DNA of 64,000 nt from Anaerohalosphaera lusitana. GTDB lineage: Bacteria > Planctomycetota > Phycisphaerae > Sedimentisphaerales > Anaerohalosphaeraceae. Of this stretch, positions 50,301 to 56,100 are shown in pieces. The translations under genes were made by a program, and so were the position numbers. The DNA lies in contig NZ_CP019791.1 in NCBI RefSeq assembly GCF_002007645.1, positions 1,178,001-1,242,000 on the forward strand, given 5' to 3'. Within the stretch, counting starts at the first letter, position 1. Every line of letters begins with the position of its first letter. The notes under the pieces were generated by a model, which worked only from the letters and a program-made list of their open reading frames with translations, was not told the origin of the DNA and did not search any database.

Positions 50301-52577
50301 TTGGAAAACAGAGATACAATCGTAAGAGTCTTAAAGACACTCTTTGAGTCTGGTGATGTGTTCGAGATTCGCATGCTGGATGCAGTTTTGCCCGGCTCGA
50401 GCTGGCAGCACGTTCAAAGCGGCTATTTCGATTACGAGCACATCGAGGACGTACCGAATGCACTGGCCAACTTTAAAACCTATGGCGGCGTTTACGTCAC
50501 CCTTAACCCGGTTAACCCGAATCTGCTGGGAAGGGCAAACAACCGTCTAAAGAAAGCCAAAAACCGCGAGACCACAGGCGATAAGGACATCCTGCGTCGT
50601 CGCTGGTGGCTGATCGATGTGGATCCGGTCCGACCAGCGGGCATCAGTGCTACCGAAGAAGAGAGGGGTCTGTCGTTCGATAAGGCAGCAGAGATATCCA
50701 GTGGTTTACAGTCGATGGATTTTCCAAAGCCGATGTGCGTCAATTCAGGTAATGGTACGCAGCTGCTCTATCGGGTTGATTTACCAGCTGATGATGGCGG
50801 GCTTATACAACGGTGTCTACAGCAACTTTCTGCCTGTTCGACGGACAGGGTGCAGGTTGATATGAGCGTATACAACTCTGCACGCATCTGCCGTCTGCCG
50901 GGCACATGGAACCGCAAAGGCGATCCCATCGATACCCGGCCGCATCGGGTCGCTGAGATTATAGATTTGCCTGATGAAATTGAAACGGTCCCAGCGGAGC
51001 TCTTGCACAAACTTGCAGGCAACTGTTCGAAAACATCGAATAGTTCGGCTGACGAGATCCAACCGACAATCTCGACCGTCTCACCAATCGACGATTTCAA
51101 CGAGCGAGGCGACATAACGGCTATTCTTCAAAAGCATGGCTGGACGCTCAAAAGTGAATCTGATCAGCAGTACTGGTACAGGCCCGGCAAATCCACCGGC
51201 CAGCATTCAGCTACTTATGATGGCACTGTCTTTTATGTGTGGAGCGATAATGCCCATCCATTCGAGGCCAGGCAGGGCTATAATCGGTTCGGTGTGTATA
51301 AGCTGCTCGAATATGGCGGGGACGATTCGGCGTCTATTGCCGCACTCAAAACCGACGGGTACGGGCCAGATGATGGTGATGTGGATCTGACGGGTATTCT
51401 TGGCAAGTTGTGTGATGGGACCGCAAAAGCGTCTCCACCATTGCCATATGGCATTGAAGTTCACTCACTGGCCCAATTGCGCAAGACATTCAGTGGTCTT
51501 AACAAACCAGTGGTTCATGGCCTGTTGCGCGAAGGTGAGACAATGAATGTCATTGCCGCGCCCAAGATGGGTAAAAGCTGGCTCACGATGCGACTGGCCG
51601 TTTCCATAGCGTCAGGCATAGATTGGATGGGATTCGAAGTTGAACAAGGGAAAATCCTGCACATCGACAACGAATTACATCGAAATCTGATCATCGATCG
51701 TTATGAGAAAGTATGCAAGGCAATGAATTTGCCTGCGCGGCTCTTAGATGGAAACGTGGATGTTATCTCGCTGAGAGGTGAGCTAAAGGATATTGTTTCT
51801 ATCGGGGATATTTGTCAGAGCTTGCAGTCTAACTGTTATAAGCTGGTAATTATTGACGCATTCTATCGCACACTGCCGGTTGGAACTGATGAGAACGACA
51901 ACGGTGCCATTGCAGGCATCTACAATATGATAGATCGTTACGCAGCTTTGATGAAGTGCGGTTTTGTGCTGATCCACCATTCCAGCAAGGGCAATCAGTC
52001 CGGCAAATCTGTAACCGATGTCGGTGCAGGTGCAGGCAGTCAATCGCGAGCGGCCGATACCCATCTGGTGATACGTCCACATGAAGAGCAGGATATATTC
52101 GTCATGGAAGCGGGTATTCGCAGTTGGGCACCAATTGACCCAATAGCATTGCATTGGCAGTGGCCGTTGTTTTCGCGAACAGATGAGGTAGATACATCAC
52201 AGCTGCTGGGAATGGCAAAGCCCAAAGCCAAGGACAAGCCGCCGTCACTGGAGGACTTTGTCGATCGCTGTGTCGCACCATACGATCCATGCTCCAAGAA
52301 TTCGATCGTGTACGAAGCGGGGCAGATACTTGGGCTTTCTGAACGCAAGGCAAACGATATGCTGTCTCTGGCCATGGAGAATGGCTTGTGCACTAGAATA
52401 AAGGCTGGCTCAAGAATGGTCTATGTCAAAAATCGTGCCGGGATCTCTGGTGAAAAAAGTCTGTGGGCGGCGGCCTTGCTTACACATGACCCCGGTAAAC
52501 CTCCGCAGGAAATTGCAGAAGTTACGAGTTGTTCAGTCAGGCAGGTTAACAGGGTTCGACAGGAATTAAGCCTCTAA
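50301..52577 (+). CDS. Phage primase-polymerase/RepA-type helicase
   Basis: 758 aa, TTG start 13 bases after the helicase stop. The N-terminal ~240 residues resemble an archaeo-eukaryotic primase-like domain: WWLIDVDPVRP (Asp-x-Asp), VNSGNGTQLLYR and RICRLPGTWNRKG. The middle is an AAA_25/RepA hexameric helicase with Walker A APKMGKSW (~417-424) and Walker B LVIIDAFYRT, plus IHHSSKG. A helix-turn-helix-like end (EIAEVTSCSVRQVNRVRQEL) closes it. It would prime and unwind phage DNA. The 3' end overlaps the convergent ATPase gene by 12 bases. Confidence 0.85.
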   Translation: MENRDTIVRVLKTLFESGDVFEIRMLDAVLPGSSWQHVQSGYFDYEHIEDVPNALANFKTYGGVYVTLNPVNPNLLGRANNRLKKAKNRETTGDKDILRRRWWLIDVDPVRPAGISATEEERGLSFDKAAEISSGLQSMDFPKPMCVNSGNGTQLLYRVDLPADDGGLIQRCLQQLSACSTDRVQVDMSVYNSARICRLPGTWNRKGDPIDTRPHRVAEIIDLPDEIETVPAELLHKLAGNCSKTSNSSADEIQPTISTVSPIDDFNERGDITAILQKHGWTLKSESDQQYWYRPGKSTGQHSATYDGTVFYVWSDNAHPFEARQGYNRFGVYKLLEYGGDDSASIAALKTDGYGPDDGDVDLTGILGKLCDGTAKASPPLPYGIEVHSLAQLRKTFSGLNKPVVHGLLREGETMNVIAAPKMGKSWLTMRLAVSIASGIDWMGFEVEQGKILHIDNELHRNLIIDRYEKVCKAMNLPARLLDGNVDVISLRGELKDIVSIGDICQSLQSNCYKLVIIDAFYRTLPVGTDENDNGAIAGIYNMIDRYAALMKCGFVLIHHSSKGNQSGKSVTDVGAGAGSQSRAADTHLVIRPHEEQDIFVMEAGIRSWAPIDPIALHWQWPLFSRTDEVDTSQLLGMAKPKAKDKPPSLEDFVDRCVAPYDPCSKNSIVYEAGQILGLSERKANDMLSLAMENGLCTRIKAGSRMVYVKNRAGISGEKSLWAAALLTHDPGKPPQEIAEVTSCSVRQVNRVRQELSL

Positions 52578-53882
52578 CGGCAGCTGCTGGCGATTTCCCA
52601 GATGTGGGGTAGCATAGAGGGGCCAGAAGATGAGTTTTTGCGAAGGCAATTCCTGGTACGGACCATCTTGCAATACCCAGCCTTGTGGGCAATTGGGATA
52701 AGCTTCAAGGCATAAATGCAGACTTCTAAGTCGCCCGGCGGGGCCGGATTTAACTTCGATCGGATAGATAGTGCTGTCGCGAACCGTAAGATAATCTACC
52801 TCGGCATTGGAACTCTTGGCAGTGCGTGACCAGTAAAAGAGCTTATCCGTATGCCAGGCAAGCAGCTCCTGAGCGACGAACTGTTCGGCAAGCTGACCAT
52901 TGTAAATTGATAAAAGATTCTCCTTACCAACCGCAATTGAGGGATCGATGCCACACATGTGCTGCATTAGTCCGATGTCCAGCATGGATGCTTTAAATCG
53001 CTTTCCTTGCGAGGCTCCCAAGGGCAAGCCGGATGGATTAGCCGAAGATATTCTGTTAAGCAATTTGGCCTTACAGAGCAAATCGAATGCTTTGTGGTTG
53101 GTTACCCCTGACGCATGCTCATAAAGTTGGGTGTATTTAATCTGCTGGCCAGTGCTTCGGGCAACCGAATCCAGTACTCCATCCAAACAGGCATAGTCAA
53201 CTGAAGGGCGATACTTGGCAAAATCCTCTCGATAAGATGAGATGATTTGCGAATGTATTTTGTAAGACTCCAGCTTTGATCTCGTGTCCCGGTATGCCTC
53301 TACTGCTTCAGGCATGCCGCCGATGAAGAAGTAGTCTCGTAAATGTTGGTGAATGGCCTCCACAAGGGCATCAGAATGATCTTTGGGGTGCTCCAGTAGT
53401 CTTTCGGCGATAATCTCGTTACCGATGGCCAGTATGTATTCGTAGAATGTCATCGGCGTTATGTGAAGATATTCGATTCGGCCGACCGGGACGGAAATTC
53501 CACCAAACGCGAATTCCAGCATCGAACCAGCTGCAACAACGTGCAGTTCGGGAAGTTCTTCATAGAAATATCGCAAAGCAGTGATTGCCCGAGGGTAGCC
53601 TTGAATTTCATCGATGAACAATAATGTTTTGCCGGGTGTGATGCGCCCCGCGTGCAATTCGATGACCTCCAGCATCCTGTTAGGTGTTAGGTCTCCTTCG
53701 AATGCTGCATGGAATTGAGGTTGTTTTTCAAGGTCAATTTTAACGTACTTCTCAAATTGTTTCGCCAGACAGTTTTCTACAAGCCAGGTCTTGCCCACCT
53801 GCCTGGCTCCACGGATTACAAGTGGTTTGCGGCGGTAGGAATTTATCCACGCAAGTAGTTTTTTTTCGGCGATCCGCTTCAT
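52566..53882 (-). CDS. AAA ATPase with DUF4143 domain (phage cargo)
   Basis: 438 aa. N-terminal AAA_14 ATPase: GARQVGKTW (Walker A), LLFIDEIQGYP (Walker B) and AAGSMLEFAF (sensor). The C-terminal DUF4143 part shows AEVDYL...PIEVKSG, a PD-(D/E)XK-like Asp...Glu-x-Lys. These ATPases are widespread, mobile and of unsettled function, with suggested roles in defence or stress. It is transcribed against the phage early and structural genes, as cargo genes are. Three copies of a TTTAGAAATACAAGG repeat with exactly 33-bp spacing lie just before its start. Confidence 0.85.
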   Translation of the reverse strand: MKRIAEKKLLAWINSYRRKPLVIRGARQVGKTWLVENCLAKQFEKYVKIDLEKQPQFHAAFEGDLTPNRMLEVIELHAGRITPGKTLLFIDEIQGYPRAITALRYFYEELPELHVVAAGSMLEFAFGGISVPVGRIEYLHITPMTFYEYILAIGNEIIAERLLEHPKDHSDALVEAIHQHLRDYFFIGGMPEAVEAYRDTRSKLESYKIHSQIISSYREDFAKYRPSVDYACLDGVLDSVARSTGQQIKYTQLYEHASGVTNHKAFDLLCKAKLLNRISSANPSGLPLGASQGKRFKASMLDIGLMQHMCGIDPSIAVGKENLLSIYNGQLAEQFVAQELLAWHTDKLFYWSRTAKSSNAEVDYLTVRDSTIYPIEVKSGPAGRLRSLHLCLEAYPNCPQGWVLQDGPYQELPSQKLIFWPLYATPHLGNRQQLPLEA

Positions 53883-53898
53883 TGTTTGTCTCCACTGC

Positions 53899-53977
53899 TT
53901 TAGAAATACAAGGTAAATATAGCAGGTATGATTTAGAAATACAAGGCAAAAGCTAAAGGATTGCTTTAGATATACAG
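53899..53977. repeat. Triple direct repeat with exact 33-bp period upstream of the DUF4143 ATPase gene
   Basis: TTTAGAAATACAAGG at 53899-53913 and 53932-53946 (identical), and a diverged TTTAGATATACAG at 53965-53977. Starts are 33 bases apart in both steps, about three helical turns, so bound proteins would sit on one face. The first copy begins 17 bases upstream of the ATPase start codon. Likely operator of this gene. Confidence 0.65.
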
Positions 53978-53998
53978 TTCATACTAGCATTATGATTT

Positions 53999-54235
53999 GG
54001 GACATGGCCGGGACATGGCTTGGACATCATGTCCTAAAATCAGGGACACCATGTCCCAACTTTAAAATCGTAAGTGCTTATTTTACAGGAAGTTAAGGGT
54101 TTCATGTCCCGTAGGACACGGCGCAGTATAAGGTCATGTCAGAAAACGTGTCTGATGTCCCAAGGGTTGATTTCTGTAAGTCTTGTATTTACAGTGGTTT
54201 ACAAAATTTGATTTGGGACATATGCTTGGACATGG
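53999..54235. repeat. Cluster of GGGACATG / CATGTCCC boxes
   Basis: GGGACATGG occurs at 53999 and 54010. Dyads follow: GGACAT-C-ATGTCC (54022-54034), GGGACA-CCA-TGTCCC (54043-54057) and TGTCC-CGTA-GGACA (54105-54118). Single boxes are at 54155-54162, 54215-54220 and 54228-54235. At least eight boxes in both orientations lie within 240 bases without a convincing gene. It could be an iteron-type replication origin, a partition site or a multi-operator. Confidence 0.6.
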
Positions 54236-54245
54236 TCACACTCTA

Positions 54246-54349
54246 CCCCCTACGGGGGTATATGCGGGCGTCTGAAACGCCCCGCAATAAACCCCAAAGA
54301 CGTAGGGTGATCGCAAGCCAATGGGTCCTTCCTGCCAAAATGGCAGGAA
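54246..54349. other. Three consecutive hairpins before the DNA methyltransferase gene
   Basis: CCCCC-TAC-GGGGG (54246-54258); GCGGGCGT with ACGCCCCGC, one bulge (54264-54285); and TTCCTGCCA-AAA-TGGCAGGAA (54329-54349, nine perfect pairs). None has a T-run. They may be part of a structured leader RNA or of a replication region with the box cluster to the left. Confidence 0.45.
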
Positions 54350-54410
54350 AAGGCAGCGGGAACCAGTCACGTTACTGACCACAGTTTGTTTTTTGTGCAT
54401 AACAGATTTT

Positions 54411-54443
54411 TTCGCCGAAACGCCGTTTTACCGGGTAAGAAAT
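54411..54443 (+). promoter_or_regulatory. Phage conserved element, copy B (before the DNA methyltransferase gene)
   Basis: TTCGCC, 14 variable bases, CCGGGTAAGAAAT; the start codon follows 38 bases after it. The right-hand block is identical to copy C at 59890-59902. Confidence 0.55.
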
Positions 54444-54481
54444 GGGTAGCCGATTACTTGCTACTTATCCCAGGAAACGAT

Positions 54482-55705
54482 ATGCGAATTACCCAGCGAA
54501 ATACCGACTCGATCAGACCCTACGAAAACAACCCGCGCCTCAATGACGAGGCTGTGGATGCCGTTGCACAGAGCCTCAAGGAGTTCGGCTTTCGTCAGCC
54601 AATCGTGGTGGACGAAGATGGTGTGATCATCTGTGGTCACACCCGGTTCAAGGCGGCACAGAAACTTGGCCTGGAAAAAGTCCCTGTCCACGTGGCCAAG
54701 GATCTCTCGCCCGAGCAGGTCAAGGCGTACCGGATCGCGGATAACCGGACCGGCGAGTTGTCGGAGTGGGACTGGGGTCAGCTCAAGATTGAGCTTGGCG
54801 ATCTGCAGGAAGCAGAGTTTGACCTTGGCATGCTGGCGTTCGATGAAGAGGAATTGAATAAGCTGCTGGATGGTGACAGCGAAGCCGTGGTCGAGGGGCT
54901 CACGGATCCAGATGCTGTTCCCGAGCCGCCGGAGGAGCCGATCACCAAGCGAGGGGACATCTGGCTGCTTGGTGATCACCGGCTCATGTGTGGCGATTCG
55001 ACCAGCAGGGTAGATGTCGAAAGACTCATGGATGGCTGCCTGGCGGATATGGTTTTTAGCGACCCGCCATACGGGGTCAACTACGTAGGCGGCACTGCCG
55101 AGCAGATGACCATCGACAACGACAATCTCAGCGAGGCCGATTACATTTCGTTCATGGACGCCTTCTTTACCCGGTTCCGTGAAAGCATCCAGGAAACCGC
55201 ATCTTTGTACATCTGCCATGCATCGTCGTGGCAGCTCGAGACAGAGCTGGCAATGCGGCAGGCAGGGTTTGAAGTCCGCAACCAGATCATCTGGGCCAAG
55301 AACTGTGGGGCATTCGGATTCGGCCGCTACAAGTTCCAGCACGAGCCGATTTTCTATGCTCACATCAAAGGCGAATCAGACAAGTGGTACGGCGACAAGA
55401 CACAGACCACACTCTGGCAGGAAAAGAAGCCAGCTGCCAACCGGCTGCACCCGACCATGAAGCCGGTGGAGATAGTCCAGAGAGCCCTGGTAAACAGCTC
55501 TAAACGCAGCGATCTGGTGCTCGATCTGTTCATGGGCTCTGGCACGACGCTGATCGCCGCAGAAACGCTTGGACGGCGGTGTGTTGGGATGGAGCTCGAC
55601 CCGGCCTATTGCGATGTGATTGTCAAAAGGTACGAAGAATTCACAGGGACCAAGGCCAAGCGGTCCAATGAGAAAACCCCAGCAGTTGCCGGGGTTGAGG
55701 ATTAG
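54482..55705 (+). CDS. ParB-domain DNA methyltransferase (phage, DPPY type)
   Basis: 407 aa from the ATG at 54482 (CCAGGAAACGAT upstream; the frame runs further but lacks homology). The N-terminal ParB/Srx-like domain has IRPYENNPRLND and GHTRFKAAQKLG. The methylase domain has catalytic SDPPYGV and, C-terminally, SAM-binding FMGSGTTLIAAE, the beta-type motif order of CcrM-like N6-adenine or N4-cytosine enzymes. It probably modifies phage DNA against restriction or marks packaging or replication sites. The two stop codons of this gene and the convergent doc gene overlap. Confidence 0.9.
   Translation: MRITQRNTDSIRPYENNPRLNDEAVDAVAQSLKEFGFRQPIVVDEDGVIICGHTRFKAAQKLGLEKVPVHVAKDLSPEQVKAYRIADNRTGELSEWDWGQLKIELGDLQEAEFDLGMLAFDEEELNKLLDGDSEAVVEGLTDPDAVPEPPEEPITKRGDIWLLGDHRLMCGDSTSRVDVERLMDGCLADMVFSDPPYGVNYVGGTAEQMTIDNDNLSEADYISFMDAFFTRFRESIQETASLYICHASSWQLETELAMRQAGFEVRNQIIWAKNCGAFGFGRYKFQHEPIFYAHIKGESDKWYGDKTQTTLWQEKKPAANRLHPTMKPVEIVQRALVNSSKRSDLVLDLFMGSGTTLIAAETLGRRCVGMELDPAYCDVIVKRYEEFTGTKAKRSNEKTPAVAGVED
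55675..55696 (-). terminator. Terminator of the doc toxin gene, inside the methyltransferase 3' end
   Basis: Read leftward: AACCCC, ten-base loop, GGGGTT followed by TTCTC. It lies a few bases past the doc stop and closely resembles the terminator at 56406-56432. Confidence 0.45.
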
Positions 55706-56100
55706 GGCATTGGGTCTATGACATTGGAACGCAGGAACTTGGCGATTTCTGTTTTGCCTATCTGGCCCTTAGCTACGCCCAGAGTTATTTCGACCAGTCC
55801 TTCTTCGTCGTTTTGAATTTGGATGTCATTGATTGCCAGAAAGACGATCGCCGAGGCGGCTCCGATTCGCTTGTTGCCGTCTAGGAAAGCATGGTTTTGA
55901 ACAAGATGATAAAGATAAGCCGCAGCCATCTCGAAGATGTCATTGTAAAGAAACTGACCCTCATAGGCGGCTTGAGGGGCTGCAATTGCAGATTGGAGCA
56001 AGCCCATGTCTCGAACGCCAGCAAGGCCTCCGTAATTCTCAATAAGACTGCCGTGCAATCGCAGGACTTGTTCAAGGTCAAGGAAGTAAGGAATTTGCAT
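55702..56100 (-). CDS. doc: Doc-type Fic toxin
   Basis: 132 aa. The Fic/Doc active site HAFLDGNKR (His70-Arg78) is intact, and the N-terminus YFLDLEQVLRLHGSLI matches death-on-curing proteins. Doc phosphorylates EF-Tu and stops translation when not held by its antitoxin. It follows the antitoxin gene by three bases. In a prophage this is a typical stability or exclusion module. Confidence 0.92.
   Translation of the reverse strand: MQIPYFLDLEQVLRLHGSLIENYGGLAGVRDMGLLQSAIAAPQAAYEGQFLYNDIFEMAAAYLYHLVQNHAFLDGNKRIGAASAIVFLAINDIQIQNDEEGLVEITLGVAKGQIGKTEIAKFLRSNVIDPMP

Follow-up and report, generated by a model that had tools for sequence, protein, structure and literature searches.

We analyzed a 64,000-nucleotide stretch of DNA from Anaerohalosphaera lusitana, hereafter the window, which is part of a 4.25 Mb single-contig genome and carries a prophage, a 37,727-bp IMG/VR element at window positions 44485-82211. 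In the left part of the prophage, genes for an exonuclease VIII-like protein, Sak4, a helicase, a primase-helicase, and a DUF4143 ATPase precede an array of short boxes, which is followed by genes for a ParB-methyltransferase, a terminase, and a portal protein (Table 1). The regions around the IMG/VR bounds of the prophage share no exact repeats of 14 bp or longer, and 53990-54400 showed no DNA similarity to phage and plasmid records at E 1e-5.

Table 1. Genes and features around the box array (window coordinates)
Feature	Position	Strand	Remarks
Primase-helicase gene	50301..52577	+	758 aa; proposed binder of the boxes
DUF4143/AAA_14 ATPase gene	52566..53882	-	Between primase and array; 12-bp overlap with primase end
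Box array	53998..54234	.	12 boxes, consensus TGGGACATG or near forms, both orientations; starts 53998+, 54009+, 54020+, 54028-, 54042+, 54050-, 54103-, 54112+, 54135-, 54154-, 54214+, 54226+
AT-rich spacer between boxes	54060..54102	.	70% AT; candidate unwinding stretch (putative role)
Second AT-rich spacer between boxes	54164..54213	.	70% AT; putative role
Conserved stem-loop	54248..54307	+	60 nt, CCCTACGG...CGTAGGG; 5-nt bulge on 3' side; directly after last box
Second conserved non-coding element	54323..54363	+	GGGTCCTTCC...GCGGGAAC; before methyltransferase; perhaps outside the origin
ParB_N + N6_N4_Mtase gene	54482..55705	+	Origin neighbour; not the proposed binder
Fic/DOC-family gene	55702-56100	-	After methyltransferase

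The box array and its neighbouring genes

An earlier note, made from the sequence of the window, had described at least eight boxes in both orientations, and this was borne out: between 53999 and 54234 we found four exact copies of GGGACATG/CATGTCCC (53999+, 54010+, 54050-, and 54103-) and four with one mismatch (54028-, 54154-, 54215+, and 54227+), while a looser 9-mer scan gave 12 GGACA-type boxes, 7 on the plus and 5 on the minus strand. The three dyads of that note are likewise all present, with a 1-base centre in GGACAT-C-ATGTCC (54022-54034), a 3-base centre in GGGACA-CCA-TGTCCC (54043-54057), and a 4-base centre in the back-to-back pair TGTCC-CGTA-GGACA within 54104-54119. Its placement of the boxes between the primase-helicase and methyltransferase genes holds, but the DUF4143 ATPase gene separates the primase from the array. 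This gene appears to be an insertion, because the arrays of relatives adjoin the primase gene end directly; it looks like a moron. An 80-aa mechanical frame from the open reading frame list (54136-54378) overlaps the array in part.

Counted across the entire window, the box word shows no enrichment (53 matches allowing up to one mismatch, against 50.3 expected); it is the clustering that stands out. Thus, 9 of the 54 window copies of GGACAT fall within 241 bp and any other 241-bp stretch holds at most 2, which corresponds to a Poisson P of about 2e-13 against the window's own background rate, for a word and a place picked post hoc. A same-orientation pair of GGGACATG at most 25 bp apart occurs once in the 4.25 Mb host chromosome, at the array. 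The looser dyad pattern GGACAT-N0-25-ATGTCC matched 10 times in forward form, against 3 times for its reversed control; of the 10 forward matches, three lie in the array and the other seven are single and elsewhere. As with iterons, several copies of a short word lie by the putative initiator gene, both here (12 boxes) and at 31 of the 35 related loci described below. Spacing is irregular, however, at 8 to 60 bp from start to start with intervals of 11, 11, and 12 bp among them, and the orientations are mixed, unlike direct repeats at a regular helical-turn spacing. We therefore regard the array as one that would work like iterons, rather than filing it as a classical member.

We then considered the primase-helicase, in which a predicted AEP primase fold (residues ~1-245) is followed by a RepA-like AAA_25 helicase (402-566), a winged helix (~650-710), and an HTH_23 domain (722-754) with the recognition helix S745-VRQVNRVR. 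The model of the C-terminal 119 residues (mean pLDDT 93) consists of the winged helix and then three helices, of which the last (model residues 107-116) is the variable one. HTH_23 scored 25.0 in the C-terminal piece, with a cut-off of 24.6, and 19.7, below the cut-off, in the whole protein. Foldseek gave no match to this model at E <=0.001, and its VIA-align rows mainly cover the winged helix. Pfam gave no match for the N-terminal part, whose model (pLDDT 88) supports an AEP primase fold: RSF1010 RepB' ranked first in Foldseek (E 9.3e-6) and eighth by VIA-align (Z 13.4), where cyanophage S-2L PrimPol was the best primase (Z 16.6). In its helicase section, the family profile has RSF1010 RepA as the best solved sequence relative (1g8y, E 7.6e-7), and the profile also matches pRN1 ORF904. 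The N-terminal domain is of another type in 11 A1 relatives (PF09250 Prim-Pol in 3/3 scanned HTH-type ones), and the window's type is common to loci L074 and L075. Since this domain (50301-51080) is unlike that of the A1 relatives while the rest of the protein aligns, a swap of the primase domain within the gene is suggested.

Repeated words in relatives and the primase recognition helix

A search with the primase gave matches in 79 of 298 genomes of the class, many of them partial. The genome and viral collections contributed 80 loci each, being the best 80 of 105 and the best 80 of 120, and further samples were added; once near-duplicates, defined by identity over the last 250 residues, had been removed, 174 loci with a readable primase remained. 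In 35 of these, a C-terminal HTH aligns with that of the window; of these HTH-type loci, 21 come from Planctomycetota genomes (the window's included), 2 from Victivallales, and 12 from viral contigs with unstated host. Repeated words were counted blind to the helix, and a log10 P of at most -6 was taken as significant. At this threshold, 31 of the 35 HTH-type loci had a significantly repeated word at the primase 3' end, in 6-13 copies per locus, compared with 1/34 control regions within the helicase, 1/28 upstream, and 1/33 further downstream. The four loci below the threshold, L035 (top word from the stem-loop) and L037, L038, and L157 (4-5 copies), were kept in the counts as weak rows, together with L249, on a very long branch, and L161, in which GTTTCA ranked just above TGTCAA.

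Among the 13 relatives viewed, HTH-bearing or closest to the window, the repeats begin in or right after the primase 3' end where present, and L043, without the HTH, has no repeats there. In some loci, L040 and L033 among them, repeats extend into the last stretch of primase coding sequence, so that the boxes spell the protein tails, for example DMNPDMGRTSDM and TAELDAELELSSS. Of the loci found later, L320 and L331, kin of L074, fit, and L332 has an HTH-type C-terminus with no array after it.

Among the other primase loci, 65 of 128 also had a significant 3' word, and these words were different. Clusters lie after the genes of HTH-less primases at L044, L046-L048, L051, L053, L054, L091, L131, L172, L176, and L180, and these clusters (AAACGA, GAGCGA, ACCACG, and others) seem to track the end of the winged helix in their primases. 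Two different words (TGTCAA and GTTTCA) share one array in L042 and L161, perhaps because the array is in transition or has two binders.

The words of the HTH-type loci were brought manually into a common frame and set against the helix, read as S-E-R-Y-V-R-Q-I-R. Arginine at helix position 3 goes with G just before the word core in 24/24 loci (for example GCGGAACTG), and glutamine goes with A (6) or C (3) in 9/9 loci, as in TGGAAACTG, TTGAAACTG, ATGAAACTA, and TGTCAACTA. In the remaining two, T in L142 goes with A, and S in L249 goes with G, the latter being a departure from the R-G rule. Similarly, H or Q at position 4 accompanies GGACATG (ACATG) words in the window, L040, and L159, and M at position 7 accompanies GCGGAAATG (GGAAATG) words in L162 and L164. 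On a tree restricted to the helicase domain, the residue at position 3 and the corresponding base each change 9 times; the supported branches contain 4 independent pairs, and among these the base shifted in the same direction in an average of 3.8 and in the opposite direction in none (sign test, p 0.125).

Because the word frame had been set by hand, a frame-free test was also run on array k-mer content. With helicase distance held, array content correlated with helix distance at a partial Mantel r of 0.53, and 0 of 5000 permutations were as high. When helix distance was held instead, helicase distance still accounted for array content (partial r 0.39), so that shared descent plays a part. In the leave-one-out comparison, the top word was shared with the nearest locus at 0.54 by helix, 0.29 by helicase, and 0.21 by background; by helix the score was 0 in 13 of the 35 loci, the window included.

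A natural switch was found among four close relatives with 80-90% protein identity, where GGAAC in L088 and L160 becomes GGAAA in L162 and L164. The same core base changes from C to A in 8-9 of 10 copies, while the other core positions changed in 0/40 and 9.6-15.9% of the remaining columns differ. The helices differ at positions 7 and 8 plus following residues. The box word thus appears to follow the recognition helix of the primase HTH, a co-variation which suggests that this domain binds the boxes.

The conserved stem-loop after the array

The stem-loop directly after the last box was predicted as one long hairpin that folds on either strand (z -5.8 as DNA). Alignment A2 held 28 sequences and left out L033 (cut off after the first arm), L087, L123, L142, L194, L196, and L249; L041 was put in by a typed probe. 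From these 28, A3 retained 22 (L035, L037, L038, L157, L074, and L075 were dropped), including the window, all of which fold with RNA parameters into long hairpins of the same plan with differing loop, bulge, and inner pairs. The model R1, built from A3, matched the window at 54237-54310 (84.5 bits) and also recovered the six dropped sequences and L087 at E 1.7e-4 or better. In total, 29 of the 35 HTH-type loci (the window included) have R1 matches, all except L033, L123, L142, L194, L196, and L249, compared with 0 of 54 other primase loci searched.

Over 30 R1 matches, 28 of them distinct, both sides have changed in 16 of 23 pairs, with 86 double-change cells compared with 28.6 in shuffled alignments, in an alignment that was fitted to the structure and so leans towards it. 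Pairing holds in 90.9% of the stem-loop cells and in 42-60% for slid versions, and the further pair types are less striking (29 vs 24.6; 13/500 shuffles as high). On the unfitted A2, RNAalifold preferred three hairpins, with double changes in 10 of 15 pairs, and the arms can form both folds.

Genome searches with R1 gave 13 places in 10 of 298 genomes and 12 places in 8 of 392, together 16 distinct places, 11 of which had gone into building the model. At fifteen of them, an HTH-type primase is encoded upstream on the same strand; the distance from where the primase match ends is 137-316 bp, the exception being the window with 1.66 kb. The sixteenth, L307, lies beside a primase remnant, where a neighbouring frame still spells SSRYVRMIGNQN. 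The remnant has M at helix position 7, and the words beside it comprise 8 GGAAAT against 4 GGAAC, so that this locus fits in part. The R1 search found one stem-loop place per origin. In Rfam, 53850-54700 gave one match, at chance level (rli26, E 0.88), and the 15 relatives gave none at the gathering threshold. The stem-loop could also act as RNA.

A putative phage replication origin

Taken together, the boxes are very probably an iteron-like replication-origin array bound by the HTH of the prophage's own primase-helicase, with the stem-loop as the priming site. The earlier note's first suggestion, an iteron-like origin next to the replication module, gains support from the primase-adjacent position, the joint change of word and helix, and the adjoining stem-loop. 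The GC-skew check proposed there lent no support and does not decide the matter: the cumulative skew of the prophage (44485-82211) rises steadily through the array, with no turning point at the boxes.

The array might instead be an operator cluster through which a transcription regulator, possibly the primase as an autorepressor, controls the downstream genes, the stem-loop being a leader RNA or attenuator. Reading frames do start soon after the stem-loop in several relatives, and its arms can alternatively fold into three separate hairpins; yet the copies, 6-13 of them and in relatives reaching into the primase coding end, are more than operators usually need, no T-run follows the window's stem-loop, and the words follow the primase HTH. 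We consider this explanation unlikely.

Less probable still is a centre for partition or plasmid-like segregation with the ParB-domain methyltransferase as its binder, which the earlier note had also entertained. A ParB_N domain is encoded by the methyltransferase gene, which begins about 250 bp downstream, and 30 of the 35 HTH-type loci have a related gene downstream. However, Pfam at E 0.001 reports ParB_N and methylase domains only and no HTH in the protein, which may yet contain a divergent one, and the word changes track the primase helix. Moreover, in L033, L037, L074, and L142 (4/35, all with 4 kb or more of sequence downstream) no relative of the gene lies there while the repeated word after the primase persists (weakly in L037), which leaves a partition centre read by this methyltransferase unsupported.

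Slightly less probable again is a site for packaging or recombination, of the pac, cos, or res kind, placed mid-way along the phage map: the terminase and portal genes begin 3.3 and 5.9 kb downstream of the array and the second conserved element lies close by, but the word of the boxes varies with the primase helix, and relatives carry their arrays at the primase gene end. A chance or low-complexity cluster without function, which the ordinary frequency of the word over the whole window would allow, is practically negligible in view of the significance of the cluster, its chromosome-unique pair, its conserved position, and the concerted change of the boxes.

For the replication-origin array, a mechanism can be outlined by analogy with RSF1010, P4, and pRN1. 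Several primase-helicase molecules would be anchored on the boxes by their C-terminal HTH, a step that rests on the co-variation; the RepA-like helicase ring would then be loaded and open the AT-rich spacers, and the stem-loop, exposed beside the array, would provide the AEP primase with a structured single-strand site for beginning synthesis. A single polypeptide would thus do three jobs that are split in RSF1010 among RepC, RepA, and RepB'.

The resemblance to the oriV of RSF1010 (IncQ) lies in iterons beside hairpin single-strand initiation sites, served by a RepA helicase and an AEP primase, as set out for RepC, RepA, RepB', and oriV in the consulted portions of PMC4234260 and PMC4434180. 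A RepA-like helicase is likewise predicted here (AAA_25; RepA 1g8y). Unlike the separate RepA, RepB', and RepC genes of RSF1010, the domains are fused in one frame, and in place of two ssi sites, with one hairpin per strand, R1 found a single stem-loop place per origin, predicted to fold on either strand. The Sulfolobus plasmid pRN1 also encodes a primase-helicase with a C-terminal winged helix, ORF904, and PF09250 occurs in the window's relatives. Excerpts from PMC4234260 describe an essential stem-loop directly downstream of the ORF904 gene and similar stem-loops in some phages, while its authors report no iteron structure and no specific binding to the downstream region. A conserved stem-loop downstream of the rep gene is present here too, but pRN1 combines an SF3 helicase with a 100-nt stem-loop, whereas this locus combines an AAA_25 RepA-like helicase with one of 60 nt. 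In phage P4, according to the same excerpts (PMC4234260), the alpha protein is a single primase-helicase whose C-terminal winged helix binds ori repeats, with a bacterial Toprim-type primase in contrast to the predicted AEP fold here, and they describe no paired stem-loop.

All parts of this arrangement have precedents, among them initiator-origin covariation in PLE RepA and a stem-loop after a PrimPol-helicase gene in pRN1. The RepA_N initiator of PLE is not known to have a primase domain. In these Vibrio cholerae phage satellites, the DNA-binding domain of RepA varies with the origin and modules are exchanged, as stated in the consulted part of PMC8263062, which describes two allele groups of the initiator, in contrast to about a dozen word forms with single-residue correspondences here. 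In the open-access literature searched, mostly listings and abstract starts, we found neither the combination of iteron-like boxes and a stem-loop with a fused AEP-RepA-HTH protein nor a residue-to-base correspondence for such boxes.

A more tentative extension, which we regard as quite possible, is that these loci form a planctomycete phage replicon family, in which the RSF1010 scheme is realized in one protein and one locus, with iteron-like boxes read by the HTH and an ssi-like stem-loop for the AEP primase. A few recognition-helix residues would set origin specificity, and nearly all boxes would be rewritten together with the helix, so that related phages would represent separate, mutually blind replication types. 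The locus provides a concrete candidate origin and initiator for Planctomycetota phages, for which no paper on either was found in the open-access literature searched (listings and abstract starts), and would unite the two origin designs contrasted by the authors of pRN1, iterons and the stem-loop. The natural pairs L088/L160 and L162/L164 offer a handle on the joint specificity change of an initiator and about 10 scattered sites. If several such prophages occur in one cell, cross-talk would be expected between those whose words match and independence between those whose words differ.

Two further observations concern the DNA beside the array. An exact DnaA-box-like TTATGCACA (TTWTNCACA) lies on the minus strand at 54394-54402; as one of 7 exact matches in the window, it was too weak, and DnaA-like boxes were dropped as origin evidence. 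The second conserved element, GG[GT]TCCT[ACT]CC...GGGAA (54323-54363 in the window), occurs at 43 of the 174 primase loci, including HTH-less ones, 16 to 1977 bp past the primase stop and often followed by a stretch like GACAGAGTTTGTTTCGCCTGTCCGG; it could be a cos-like or regulatory site.
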